Origin: Actinomycetota bacterium
GTDB lineage: Bacteria > Actinomycetota > Acidimicrobiia > Acidimicrobiales > Iamiaceae
Length of the DNA stretch: 35,498 nt
Assembly (NCBI GenBank): GCA_963169755.1
Contig: CAUJFC010000065.1
Location: 1-35,498, forward strand
Direction of reading: 5' to 3'
Under the pieces are notes generated by a model. It worked only from the letters and a program-made list of their open reading frames with translations. It searched no databases and was not told where the DNA came from. Below are positions 20,710 to 32,188 of this stretch, in pieces (the first letter of the stretch is position 1; each line of letters opens with the position of its first letter). The position numbers were made by a program, and so were the translations under genes.

Positions 20710-21453
20710 GTGGAGGAGAAGTCGATCGCCTCGGAGCGGCTCTTCGAACTCGAGCAGTTCTGCCTCGGCCCCGCAGGCCGGGCCGCCGCGCGTGCCGACC
20801 TGACCCGATACGGCCTACCAGCCGACGCCGATCACGTGGACGACATCTGCCAGCAGGTCCTGGTCGGGATCTGGGCCCGGCTCTCGACCGCTCGGGACGA
20901 CGAGCCCTCAGAGGATCACCTCACCAACGTGGCCGCCTACGCCCGCCGATCCATCCGCAACGCCGTGGTCGATCTGCTGAGGGGCCGCAGTGGGCGTGAG
21001 AGGCTGGCCCTCGGCAACCGGGCCGGCGGCGCCGAGGCGGACTATCCGACCGAGGACGGGGGAAGCGGCCTCCCCGACGATCGGGACCCCGAGGCGTGGA
21101 CCGATGCAACCAGCGACCGGCGCGTGGCCGATGAGTTGCGATGGGCGATCCAGTCGGCATCTACCTGTATGCCCGATCGCGATGGCTGGCTGGTGTCGGC
21201 CACCCTTGCCCTGACCCATCTGGCCGATCACCCCGATCTGGAACCACCAGATGGTGCCCCTCTGCCGGACCCACGTTCACCGGCGGCCGGTCACGCCAGT
21301 CGTTGGGTAGCTCTCTTCTACGCCGGCCGGCTCGACTGCTTCGACAGGCCCGAGACCGGAGCAGTGCGTGAACGGCGTTCTCGGGCCCTGAAGCGGGTGG
21401 AACGAATGTTCCTCGATGGCCTCTCCCGCTCCGGGGAAGGAGGGGTCCGATGA
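20710..21453 (+). CDS. ECF sigma-factor-like protein with atypical C-terminal half
   Basis: Region 2-like 'ADHVDDICQQVLVGIWARL...HLTNVAAYARRSIRNAVVDLLRGR'; C-terminal 'ETGAVRERRSRALKRVERMFLDGL' resembles end of region 4; GTG 20710. Confidence 0.65.
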   Translation: MEEKSIASERLFELEQFCLGPAGRAAARADLTRYGLPADADHVDDICQQVLVGIWARLSTARDDEPSEDHLTNVAAYARRSIRNAVVDLLRGRSGRERLALGNRAGGAEADYPTEDGGSGLPDDRDPEAWTDATSDRRVADELRWAIQSASTCMPDRDGWLVSATLALTHLADHPDLEPPDGAPLPDPRSPAAGHASRWVALFYAGRLDCFDRPETGAVRERRSRALKRVERMFLDGLSRSGEGGVR

Positions 21454-22763
21454 ACGCGACGCTGGAGATCCACTTGGCCGACGGGCTGGTCGTGATCTCA
21501 ACCGGTCGACCACCGGGTCCGGCGGGCGTCAGCGCCCTCTGGCTGAGTGACGGAGCCGTCGAGTTGCTCGTCGACACCGCCGAGCCCCACCGACTGGTGT
21601 CTGTGACCACCGACCTCGGGGACCTGGATCGTAGCGAGCCATCCCTCCACTCGCTGTTCGGTCCGATGGTCACCGACTCGATCGCCGCCTGGGCGGCCAC
21701 CGCGTCCGACGGAGCGCCACCGGCGAGTGTCGGGACCCACGACCCGACCCTCACGGTGATCGGCCCGATGTCGCGGCTGGGGAGGTTGGCGGTGGGACTC
21801 GACGAAGTATCCAGCGAGGATCCGAACCCACTGGTCGAGGCCCTGGCCATGGTCGACCTCGGATGCGACATCATCAACCTGGTCGGCGACCTACGGGTGG
21901 ATCCCGCGGGACAAGCCCTGGTCGAAACAGGCCTGGACCGCTTGGAACACCTCCGGGATGAGGATCGGGAGCCCCCGGGGGGCCGCCTCTGGCAGCAGAT
22001 CCTCAGGCGACGGCCAGGCTGGATCGAGACCATCTCGGATCGCCGCCCTGACCTGAGTGACCGGTTCTCGTCCCTGTGGGATCGGATCCTGGCACCCTAC
22101 GGTGAGACCGACAGGCGCCAGACCACCGTCGATGATCTGACCATGGTCGACCATGCGCGTTTGCTGATGATGCCAGCGGCCGCACCGATGGCCGCGGCTG
22201 AGATGGCCGCGGCTGAGATCGCCGACGCGGCCGAGGCATCAGCCGCCGCCCCTCGGACCCCTCAACTCGAAGTGCTGTTCCCACCGGGGGTGAGCGGGCG
22301 GAAAGTCTCGGCAACTCTCGAACGCCACCATCTGGTGACTCACCTTGGTGGGCTGCCAGATGGCTCCTGGTGGCTGCGGGCCTTCCGGGTCGATGCCACC
22401 GGCGGTCCGCCTCGTCTCCTGGCGGTGGCACCGTTGGTTGGGGACACCTGGGGTCACTCGGGCATCGCTCTGGTGGGTCCCGACGTCAACTCGGCTGATC
22501 TGCTGGTGGACGTCAGTCGCCACCCGGCCGAGCCGTGGACGTCCACAGCCACTCGGGCCAGTACCGAGGCGGTGATTCTCGGTCGACGGGCCGCCCGCAC
22601 CAGCCGAGCCGGAGCCCGGAGCACCGAGAGCTGGGAGGAGTGTGCCCGGGCCTGGACCGACGCCGGAGATCCACAGCGGGCCCTACAGGCTCAATCGTTC
22701 GCTGACCGGCCGCCGTTTCCCATCTGGGCCGACACCGATCCGCTACTCACCGACCTGGCCTGA
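21450..22763 (+). CDS. Orphan hypothetical protein (437 aa), translationally coupled to ECF-like gene
   Basis: ATGA overlap with upstream ORF, GGAGG-type SD; no family recognised. Confidence 0.75.
   Translation: MNATLEIHLADGLVVISTGRPPGPAGVSALWLSDGAVELLVDTAEPHRLVSVTTDLGDLDRSEPSLHSLFGPMVTDSIAAWAATASDGAPPASVGTHDPTLTVIGPMSRLGRLAVGLDEVSSEDPNPLVEALAMVDLGCDIINLVGDLRVDPAGQALVETGLDRLEHLRDEDREPPGGRLWQQILRRRPGWIETISDRRPDLSDRFSSLWDRILAPYGETDRRQTTVDDLTMVDHARLLMMPAAAPMAAAEMAAAEIADAAEASAAAPRTPQLEVLFPPGVSGRKVSATLERHHLVTHLGGLPDGSWWLRAFRVDATGGPPRLLAVAPLVGDTWGHSGIALVGPDVNSADLLVDVSRHPAEPWTSTATRASTEAVILGRRAARTSRAGARSTESWEECARAWTDAGDPQRALQAQSFADRPPFPIWADTDPLLTDLA
22188..22217 (+). repeat. 15-bp in-frame tandem duplication
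   Basis: atggccgcggctgag x2, followed by a degenerate third unit (MAAAE MAAAE IADAAE). Confidence 0.85.
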
Positions 22764-28116: not shown

Positions 28117-29007
28117 TCAGCTCCGGAACACCTCGATGGGTTCGCCATCACCCACCAGCGATGGGAAGTACTCGGCGATGTGCATCGGTATCCGGACACA
28201 GCCGTGGCTGGCCGGCCTGTTGGGGACCGAGCCCGCCCCGTGCACCGCTATTCCACCGTTGAAGTACACCGGGTTGTACAGCCGACCCAGCGGAGCATCA
28301 CGCCAGCCCGACACCCTCCGCCCGAACGCGTACACCCCGGTGGGAGTGACCGCGCTTCCGCATCGGCGACCCTCCCTGGTTCGCTCGCAGTAGGCCACCT
28401 CGCTACCGGTGGACACATGGGTGACCAAGTCGAGCACGTTGTCTCGCCAGACCAGCATCACCTGACGCGAGAGGTCCACCTCGACATGGGTGGGCCCGAG
28501 CTCAGGGCGCAGCATCACCGGTGCCGGGCGCGACAGGATCAACGCTTCCAGCTCGGGGGTCACCACTCCGTCACGGGGAAACCCGAACAGCGCCTGAAAC
28601 GCCCATACCGCCATGACGGTCCTGACGCCGAAACGACCGTCGGCCACCCCGGGGTCGTAGGCCTGGGCGGCCAGAGCCTCCTGGAGTGCCCGAGTGCGAG
28701 TTCCCATGCTCCCGGCCTGCAAGGGACCGGGAGGCTCGGTGAGGGTCTCGGGTGCGACGGTGGTGGTGGTTACCGGCACGGTCGTGGTTGGCGCCACCGT
28801 GGTGGTCGGAGCCGTTGACGTGGTGGCAGCCGGGGCCGTCGCTGATGTCGGCGGCGCAGCGGTGGTGGACGGCACCGAGCTCGATGGTGGGGCGGTGGCC
28901 ACGGTCCGACCGGCCGTCGAGCCCGAGTCGGCACAACCCACCATCAACGCCATGGCCATCACCGATCCGATGGTCGCAGCTCTCCACGCGCCTCCCCGAA
29001 CCATCAC
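28117..29007 (-). CDS. L,D-transpeptidase lipoprotein with peptidoglycan-binding domain
   Basis: YkuD motif 'IAVHGAGSVPNRPASHGCVRIP', PG-binding 'GTRTRALQEALAAQAYDPGVADGRFG', lipobox 'MALMVGC', Thr/Pro/Val-rich linker. Confidence 0.93.
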   Translation of the reverse strand: MMVRGGAWRAATIGSVMAMALMVGCADSGSTAGRTVATAPPSSSVPSTTAAPPTSATAPAATTSTAPTTTVAPTTTVPVTTTTVAPETLTEPPGPLQAGSMGTRTRALQEALAAQAYDPGVADGRFGVRTVMAVWAFQALFGFPRDGVVTPELEALILSRPAPVMLRPELGPTHVEVDLSRQVMLVWRDNVLDLVTHVSTGSEVAYCERTREGRRCGSAVTPTGVYAFGRRVSGWRDAPLGRLYNPVYFNGGIAVHGAGSVPNRPASHGCVRIPMHIAEYFPSLVGDGEPIEVFRS

Positions 29008-29860: not shown

Positions 29861-32188
29861 GTGACGGCCCCCAGCAACTCGCCCGCGCCCACCGCGCCTC
29901 CCCCCGATTCGGCCCCCACCCAGCGACCTTCAACCGTCGGTGGAGCGGGGGAATCCACCGTGTCTTCGCTGCGCACCCGCTCGGGCCCATCCGAGGTTCC
30001 GGTGAACCTGGTGATGGCCGCCCGCCGGGGTGATCCCGCCGCTTTCGCCCGAATGGTCGAGCACTGGAACCCTCACCTGCGACCGTTCGTGCACCACGTC
30101 CTGGCCGGTGATGGTTCAGTCGACCGGGCGTTGTCGGCTGCCTACATCCGGGCCTACCGGGCACTCCCCCGCTATGACGCCAGCCAGAAGCCCGGACTGT
30201 GGCTCCATCGGATCGCCTACCTGGCGGCCACCGACGAATTACGCCGCTACACCCGCGATCCGCTCCATCGGCGAAACCTGGCCGACCAGGGTCGAGCCGA
30301 GACCGCCACCGACGCCGTACGCGACCACCTGGGTCTGTCACCTCACGACATCGACGAGCTGGTGGTGAGCACCGATCCGACCCCGGAGCGAACGGTCGAC
30401 GTCGGCCCCGGCATCGAGATCGACGTCGACTCTGTCGAGGAACCCGATCTCGATACCGAGAGCGCCCTGGTCGAGGCCCGGGCCATCATGGCGCTCGACG
30501 AGGACGGTCGGCGGGCACTTGTTCCACCCGGCTGGCGGCGACTGGCACCCGACCAACGAGCCCTGGCGGTCATGGTTGATCTGTCCGGATACCGGCTCGA
30601 AGATGCCTCGGCCGCCCTGGACGCCCACCCGGCAGAGGCCGCCGCCCGCCTGGAATCGGCCCGGCGACTGCTCTGTCGGCTCCAGGGGGTGACAGTTCCC
30701 ACGGGTCCCCTCGACTCTCATCCCGAGACCCTCCGAACAGCCCACGACGTTCTGACCGCGATGGAGGTTCCCCCGGCCGACCAACGGTTCTGGTCGGTGC
30801 TGGGTCGCCGTCTGCTGGCCGAGCGCGAGGCCCCGGCCGCCGCTGCCATCGACCCCCATGAACGCCTGGCTCGTTTGCATCCGGCCGAACCCGGGTTCAA
30901 GCCGCGGGAGTCCCATCATTCCCCACCCGACGCGGCCCGCCGCCGGATTCACCAGTTGGCCGAGCAGGCCGAGGTGGCCAGCCCCGTAGACACCGGGCGC
31001 CGCCGGCCCCGGGCCGTCATTGTGCTGGCGGGGATCGCGGCGGTCGCCCTGTTGGTGGCCGCGGTGATGATCGGCACCAGCTCGCGGATTCCCGACGGCT
31101 CTCGGCCCGCCAGTGAAGTGGCCAAGGAAACCGCTACCGCCATGGCGGCTGGACCGTTCCAGAAGGTAACCGCCAACGTCTCTGAGACCGCCCCGGGCGG
31201 ACGTACGTCCACCCGGTCCTACGAGATCGTGTTGGGTTCGGATGGCTCCTGGGCGGTGTCCACCAGCGGAACCATCGACCAGACCACCTACGACGCCACC
31301 AGCGGCCTGCTGCGGCGGGTGGCCGTGGTCGGTGAAGGGGCGAGGGCCCAGGTCTACGCCACCGACTCACCCGGCCTGGCCGCCGGGGCACCCGATGCCA
31401 GTCCGACTCAACCCACCCCGCTGGACGACCTGGGGGCGGTGCCCTCCCTGCTTCGGGCCGCTGATCGAACCCGGATGCCGCGCCGCACGATCGGTGACAC
31501 CGCGGTCCGCACCCTCACCAGATCCCTGCCGACCGGAGCCGAGGGGGCCGCCGAGCAGTGGCAGGTGAGCATCTCCACCAGCACCTCGCTTCCTGTGGAG
31601 ATCGTCCGGTCCCGCGATGGCCGGGTCGTCCGCCGGATCAACATCGAGAGATGGCAGAAGGTCACCGCGGTTCCGGCCACCACCTTCTCCCAGCCCGTTC
31701 CCGACGGGGTGGAGCCAACGGTCGATGACAGCGGGTTCGCCACCACCGACCTGGCAGCCGTACCTCTGCTGGGACGGGGCGAGCCCGTAACCCCGTCGTG
31801 GCTGCCACCGGGCTTCGAACTGTCGGTGGTGGCGGTCCGCTCCGAGGCTCCCAGCAGCCGGCCATCCACGTCGGCCGGATCGAACCCCGCTGACATCGGG
31901 GTGATGTCGCTCGGCTACCAACACGGCGTCCAGCGCATAACCGTCACATCCCGGGCTGCTGGCGCCGACCCCACGGCCTGGAGTTCGCCGTTCGTGCCGG
32001 TCGCTGGAGGTGGCCGGGCTCAGGCCAGAGTCCTGGGTGATGGGCGCTACAACGGGGCCCGGGTGACAATCGACGTCGACGCCCGGGGACGCAGCCGGTT
32101 GTGGGGTATCAGCGGCGACACGGTGTTCACCGTGGCCGGTGATCTGACCCCCGATCAGGCGTTCCGGGTAGCCGCCTCGTTCAGGTGA
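29861..32188 (+). CDS. ECF sigma-like / single TM / extracytoplasmic RseB- or LolA-like fusion protein
   Basis: 'MAARRGDPAAFARMVEHWNPHLRPFV...RALPRYDASQKPGLWLHRIAYLAATDELRRYTR' (region 2-like), 'WRRLAPDQRALAVMVDLSGYRLEDASAALDAHPAEAAARLESARRLL' (region 4-like), TM 'AVIVLAGIAAVALLVAAVMIG', C-terminal 'WLPPGFELSVVAV...'; GTG 29861 preceded by TACGCT-N9. Confidence 0.75.
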   Translation: MTAPSNSPAPTAPPPDSAPTQRPSTVGGAGESTVSSLRTRSGPSEVPVNLVMAARRGDPAAFARMVEHWNPHLRPFVHHVLAGDGSVDRALSAAYIRAYRALPRYDASQKPGLWLHRIAYLAATDELRRYTRDPLHRRNLADQGRAETATDAVRDHLGLSPHDIDELVVSTDPTPERTVDVGPGIEIDVDSVEEPDLDTESALVEARAIMALDEDGRRALVPPGWRRLAPDQRALAVMVDLSGYRLEDASAALDAHPAEAAARLESARRLLCRLQGVTVPTGPLDSHPETLRTAHDVLTAMEVPPADQRFWSVLGRRLLAEREAPAAAAIDPHERLARLHPAEPGFKPRESHHSPPDAARRRIHQLAEQAEVASPVDTGRRRPRAVIVLAGIAAVALLVAAVMIGTSSRIPDGSRPASEVAKETATAMAAGPFQKVTANVSETAPGGRTSTRSYEIVLGSDGSWAVSTSGTIDQTTYDATSGLLRRVAVVGEGARAQVYATDSPGLAAGAPDASPTQPTPLDDLGAVPSLLRAADRTRMPRRTIGDTAVRTLTRSLPTGAEGAAEQWQVSISTSTSLPVEIVRSRDGRVVRRINIERWQKVTAVPATTFSQPVPDGVEPTVDDSGFATTDLAAVPLLGRGEPVTPSWLPPGFELSVVAVRSEAPSSRPSTSAGSNPADIGVMSLGYQHGVQRITVTSRAAGADPTAWSSPFVPVAGGGRAQARVLGDGRYNGARVTIDVDARGRSRLWGISGDTVFTVAGDLTPDQAFRVAASFR

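Follow-up and report, generated by a model that had tools for sequence, protein, structure and literature searches.

A probable one-chain relative of an ECF sigma/membrane anti-sigma-type operon with an RseB-like ectodomain and an eroded sigma half

Results

The fused gene and its distribution

The window, i.e. the complete stretch of 35,498 nucleotides analyzed here, encodes a protein that is, in architecture and relationship, very probably the one-chain relative of a two-gene operon for an ECF sigma factor and a membrane anti-sigma-type protein. A previous sequence-only reading of this DNA had described a single polypeptide of about 775 residues, and its extent was correct. The plus-strand frame is uninterrupted over 29861..32188 and gives a 775-amino acid product from the GTG codon at 29861. 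This start is plausible; an alternative GTG at 29960 is preceded by a G-rich stretch. A survey of genomes for the same architecture, which had been proposed together with that reading, showed that the fused gene recurs in 18 of the 24 Iamiaceae-family genomes searched, with one of the 18 copies cut by a contig end. Because of this recurrence, the frame is not a product of chance. The gene is missing from G008 and G010, two nearly complete congeners, and is therefore dispensable. Outside the family, no fused copies were found in the sampled 298 order, 395 class, and 397 phylum genomes, which are samples of larger groups. Named organisms were scanned with a five-member alignment, which yielded five loci, whereas the single fused protein as query gave no match. 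The named genus members that carry the fused protein are Aquihabitans, family Iamiaceae.

The window holds a second sigma2-like open reading frame at 20710-21453 (plus strand, 247 amino acids), where the region 2 Gln is kept and no region 4 was seen. It shares a four-base overlap with a 437-amino acid frame at 21450-22763 (plus strand) that has no Pfam match. An origin of the fused gene from a paralog within the window was rejected, as neither of these two products showed similarity to the fused protein in BLASTP.

Sigma regions 2 and 4 in the N-terminal half

The N-terminal half had been proposed to carry ECF region 2-like and region 4-like modules, and homology to both sigma2 and sigma4 was found. 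Pfam Sigma70_r2 matches amino acids 65-132 above its cut-off (28 bits versus 24, E 2e-6), and sigma2 structures of the PDB are matched by this half as well. Together with the helices predicted by AlphaFold2, these matches place sigma region 2 at amino acids 48-133 (30002..30259, plus strand). Region 4 is divergent. In the single window protein it stays below Pfam detection, whereas Sigma70_r4_2 is matched by 10 of 16 homologues, and the family profile aligns with E. coli sigma-E across regions 2 and 4 (E=9e-21). Region 4 was assigned to amino acids 224-274 (30530..30682, plus strand), with an eroded recognition helix at amino acids ~255-274. In the full AlphaFold2 model sigma2, sigma4, and the ectodomain are all confidently folded. 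The best 50 Foldseek matches listed for the full model concern the ectodomain only, so the assignment of the sigma half rests on sequence profiles and not on the fold search.

Loss of sigma signature residues

The fused sigmas lack residues by which canonical ECFs dock on the beta' clamp, wedge the -10 element, and read the -35 element. Residue counts were compared between 16 fused sigmas and 23 other ECFs, the latter encoded in these genomes or in related ones. The suspicion of a degenerate region 2.2 was borne out. The peptide SVDRALSAAYIRAY occupies amino acids 86-99 of the fused protein and lies in the region 2.2 helix (amino acids 86-104, SVDRALSAAYIRAYRALPR; 30116..30172, plus strand), where the window protein has S92, A93, and R89 at the positions expected to hold Gln, Glu, and the second acidic residue. 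The Gln is present in none of the 16 fused sigmas versus 20 of the 23 other ECFs, and the second acidic residue (Asp or Glu) in 3/16 versus 22/23. In M. tuberculosis sigma-H, the contacts to the beta' coiled coil are conserved among ECFs, and Asn-88 acts as the -10 wedge, the alanine variant of which impairs transcription (PMC6411747). The wedge Asn is absent from all 16 fused sigmas, one of which has Arg, versus 18 of the 23 other ECFs with Asn and the remaining 5 with Arg; the window protein has Leu121 at this position. Most recognition-helix residues are lost as well, the Gly-Thr pair is mostly gone, and the helix is the least conserved part, with 24% identity over the 16 sequences. The erosion is incomplete, since the window protein still has the -10 pocket residues W114 and I118; the pocket Trp is additionally lost in the lineage comprising L015, L016, L019, and L021. 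Also persistent in the genus of the window are Y95 and Y99 in the 2.2 helix and a single recognition-helix Arg, which together with W114 and I118 make residual sigma activity possible.

Selective constraint on sigma2

Despite the loss of signature residues, sigma2 is the most constrained part of the chain and is under strong purifying selection. The dN/dS ratio was 0.11-0.21 for sigma2 versus 0.25-0.48 for the ectodomain; with synonymous sites near saturation these values are rough, and the ranking of the regions is what counts. Within the genus, conservation was highest in sigma2 (75% versus 42-58% in the ectodomain), and sigma2 exceeded the ectodomain in every subgroup compared. The same ranking was obtained for the split pair L060/L061, with 74% for the sigma factor and 53% for its partner.

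The membrane helix and the RseB-like ectodomain

A single membrane anchor followed by a sensor of the RseB/MucB/LolA type had been claimed, and both features were recovered. The transmembrane helix spans amino acids 385-406 (31013..31078, plus strand), with a Kyte-Doolittle value of 3.06 compared with 0.76 for the runner-up segment, and AlphaFold2 predicts a helix with the same borders. Positive charge on the N-terminal flank indicates an N-in orientation. In each of the 16 homologues examined, one hydrophobic segment dominates, and its N-terminal flank is likewise positively charged.

In the predicted structure the ectodomain has the RseB/MucB fold, composed of a LolA-like large domain (amino acids 413-602; 31097..31666, plus strand) and a small C-terminal domain (amino acids 623-775; 31727..32185, plus strand), both delimited by AlphaFold2 and Foldseek. 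Modeled alone, it reached a pLDDT of 90.6 and a pTM of 0.88. The top Foldseek matches were MucB (E 1.7e-12) and RseB (E 3.1e-12) with both domains aligned, LolA came next, and LprG ranked lower. For the full-length model RseB and MucB (E 4.5e-10) and LolA were again first. Whole-chain TM-scores against RseB and MucB were low (0.26-0.35 on the query), and the two domains are therefore probably arranged otherwise than in RseB. In the ectodomain of the window protein and of the 16 homologues, MucB_RseB had no match and no other Pfam family exceeded its cut-off; weak similarity to DUF4367, in the small C-terminal domain, was seen in 9 of the 16. A PDB sequence search with the ectodomain profile gave no match, and the RseB likeness is seen by fold comparison only.

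Split relatives and the FW element

Elsewhere in Actinomycetota, the ectodomain profile matches a membrane protein that has a gene of its own. At loci L045, L051, L060, L061, and L105 the transmembrane protein with the ectodomain is encoded directly behind a canonical ECF sigma gene, its start overlapping the sigma stop by 4-8 bases. These partners begin with a motif that is also present in the fused protein, a conserved two-helix element (VPxxxxFWxxLxRRLxAE, hereafter FW element) that the sequence-only reading had overlooked. In the fused protein it lies between sigma4 and the membrane at amino acids ~284-330 (30710..30850, plus strand), and AlphaFold2 predicts its helices, 288-300 and 310-323, with high confidence. 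The element is common to the fused proteins and the N termini of the separate membrane partners; in the genome of the window, a convincing copy occurs in the fused protein only.

At L107, L110, and L113 a zinc-finger-like anti-sigma N terminus precedes the RseB-like ectodomain, and ECF genes adjoin. Conversely, L023 and L026 carry the FW motif on membrane partners where no RseB-like ectodomain was detected; the contig of L023 stops inside the partner gene. N-terminal elements and ectodomain are thus swapped as modules, and for this reason the FW element is read as the sigma-binding part. From gene pairing and domain exchange we infer that it is a candidate anti-sigma clasp, and the fused chain probably holds its own restraining partner as well. 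A precedent is CnrY, a class II anti-sigma factor in which two helices clasp sigma4 and sigma2 (PMC7406223).

In a tree of 38 sigma domains, the 16 fused sigmas form one side of one branch (98/96). This clade lies near the split-pair sigmas of L045, L051, L060, and L061, with 89/88 for the wider grouping. A gene for an L,D-transpeptidase (YkuD, by Pfam; 28117..29007, minus strand) is a conserved neighbor of the fused gene, is retained in many genomes of the family, and at L099 is found just ahead of the split pair. Its presence beside both the fused copy and the L099 pair supports common descent, and it hints at a role in the cell wall. In summary, the split pairs of Actinomycetota share with the fused protein the ectodomain, the FW element, a related sigma, and in L099 the YkuD neighbor, but they consist of two overlapping genes and have a canonical sigma with the region 2.2 Gln.

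Proteins with an RseB-like ectodomain are also encoded at L063, L064, L108, and L109, where no sigma gene was detected in the available flanks. In Aquihabitans sp. G128 (L091, reverse strand), a finished genome, the fused gene shifts frame, apparently twice. The frame changes are located in the GC-rich linker, the sigma4-to-FW stretch; they may stem from sequencing error, a broken gene, or a real split, and were excluded from the evidence for a split form.

Discussion

Relation to known systems

Fusions of sigma and anti-sigma factors are a known kind of protein (PMC8999054). The fused protein has the domain order of this single-chain type, represented by IutY and ECF52, with the FW element as its putative anti-sigma part. 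In IutY of Pseudomonas putida (ECF243), an ECF sigma, a membrane helix, and an exported anti-sigma part are likewise combined in one polypeptide. Cleavage by Prc and RseP yields an active sigma, and the system serves iron-carrier signaling (PMC5411451); the fused protein differs by its RseB-like ectodomain and its eroded sigma. Extended ECFs of the ECF52/ECF53 type had been named as a precedent, and the literature agrees. Members of ECF52, ECF53, and ECF48 of Actinobacteria (e.g. SCO4117) are sigma factors with a C-terminal anti-sigma domain, a transmembrane segment, and an extracellular extension (PMC8999054, PMC5826349). For ECF52, proteolytic release of the active sigma has been proposed (PMC5826349). 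ECF52 proteins combine a carbohydrate-binding module with a zinc-finger domain, neither of which had a Pfam match in the fused protein; instead, this protein has the FW element, which is zinc-free, and the RseB-like ectodomain.

The systems RpoE-RseA-RseB of E. coli and AlgU-MucA-MucB of Pseudomonas also unite a sigma, a membrane anti-sigma, and an RseB-fold sensor in one pathway, but as three separate proteins, whereas the actinobacterial protein described here is one chain with an eroded sigma. PhyR of Alphaproteobacteria resembles it in having a sigma-like domain with degenerate contacts to RNA polymerase and promoter (PMC8103513). Unlike the fused protein, PhyR is a response regulator that titrates NepR and has neither a membrane anchor nor an extracytoplasmic sensor. 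In the ECF reviews consulted, which are not an exhaustive source, we found no characterized ECF group with this sensor and no description of an RseB-like sensor combined with a zinc-free FW element and an eroded sigma. Novel, as judged from these sources, are the RseB-like ectodomain, an FW element without zinc, and the loss of sigma signature residues throughout the family. They offer a clear split-versus-fused case of the way in which a two-gene stress pathway may turn into one receptor, with erosion of the sigma perhaps following fusion, and they place an RseB-type sensor on ECF anti-sigma-type proteins across Actinomycetota.

A possible mechanism and its alternatives

The following explanation, taken as a whole from the operon relationship and the eroded sigma to ectodomain gating and a pseudo-sigma output, has in our estimate an even chance of being right. 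The split operon would have been fused first, and erosion of the sigma would have followed. In the fused chain, the FW helices may clasp the sigma half in cis. The RseB-like ectodomain would respond to a signal from the envelope, which could be a lipidic cue or one from the cell wall by analogy with the RseB and LprG folds, and would gate the exposure or the proteolytic release of the sigma half. Proteolytic release is possible, as a site-2 protease (PF02163) is encoded in the same genome. The sigma half would then most likely act through the retained protein-protein surface of sigma2 and not by reading a promoter. A decoy or pseudo-sigma function of this sort, with a complete sigma/anti-sigma/RseB pathway in one membrane protein that is gated by its sensor, has ceased to read promoters, and signals through the sigma2 surface, is proposed tentatively and is somewhat less likely than not. 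If it is true, PhyR-type sigma mimicry would have its transmembrane equivalent in this protein. If the sigma half no longer starts transcription, this would be a second route to such mimicry, wired to an extracytoplasmic sensor.

As the main alternative, the sigma could be tethered but still active, with intramembrane proteolysis triggered by the ectodomain freeing a sigma that has altered RNA polymerase contacts and uses an unusual promoter. We consider this somewhat unlikely. The layout is that of ECF52 and of IutY, the closest well-studied analogue, which releases an active sigma after cleavage by Prc and RseP (PMC5411451). The strong constraint on sigma2, the retention of W114, I118, Y95, Y99, and a basic LRR region, and the site-2 protease would all fit. 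These points are opposed by the loss of the Gln and the wedge Asn in 16/16 and of the second acidic residue in 13/16 fused sigmas, by the poor conservation of the recognition helix, and by the further loss of the -10 pocket Trp in one lineage.

It is improbable that the sigma half works as PhyR does, titrating on signal the anti-sigma of another ECF and thereby switching that ECF on indirectly. The sigma-like domain of PhyR, with its degenerate contacts, sets the precedent for such titration (PMC8103513), and the fused proteins retain the sigma fold while the signature residues are lost. However, a search of the genome of the window for FW-type elements revealed no second one and hence no obvious target anti-sigma. 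A Pfam match to the PhyR_sigma-like model in 4 of the 16 members was not counted in favor of mimicry, since the canonical sigmas of split pairs match the same model.

A purely vestigial sigma half, kept as a relic for folding in a protein that is only an envelope sensor or scaffold, would agree with the lost signature residues and with the two nearly complete congeners that lack the gene, but it is disfavored by sigma2, whose dN/dS points to the strongest purifying selection of any region of the chain and whose conservation exceeds that of the ectodomain in all subgroups compared, and we regard it as very improbable.

Apart from the fused proteins, a free-standing ECF-like sigma positioned near the fused clade (L026, 1561-2085, plus strand) lacks the Gln of region 2.2 as well (LHAAY), and its gene adjoins that of an FW-type membrane partner.
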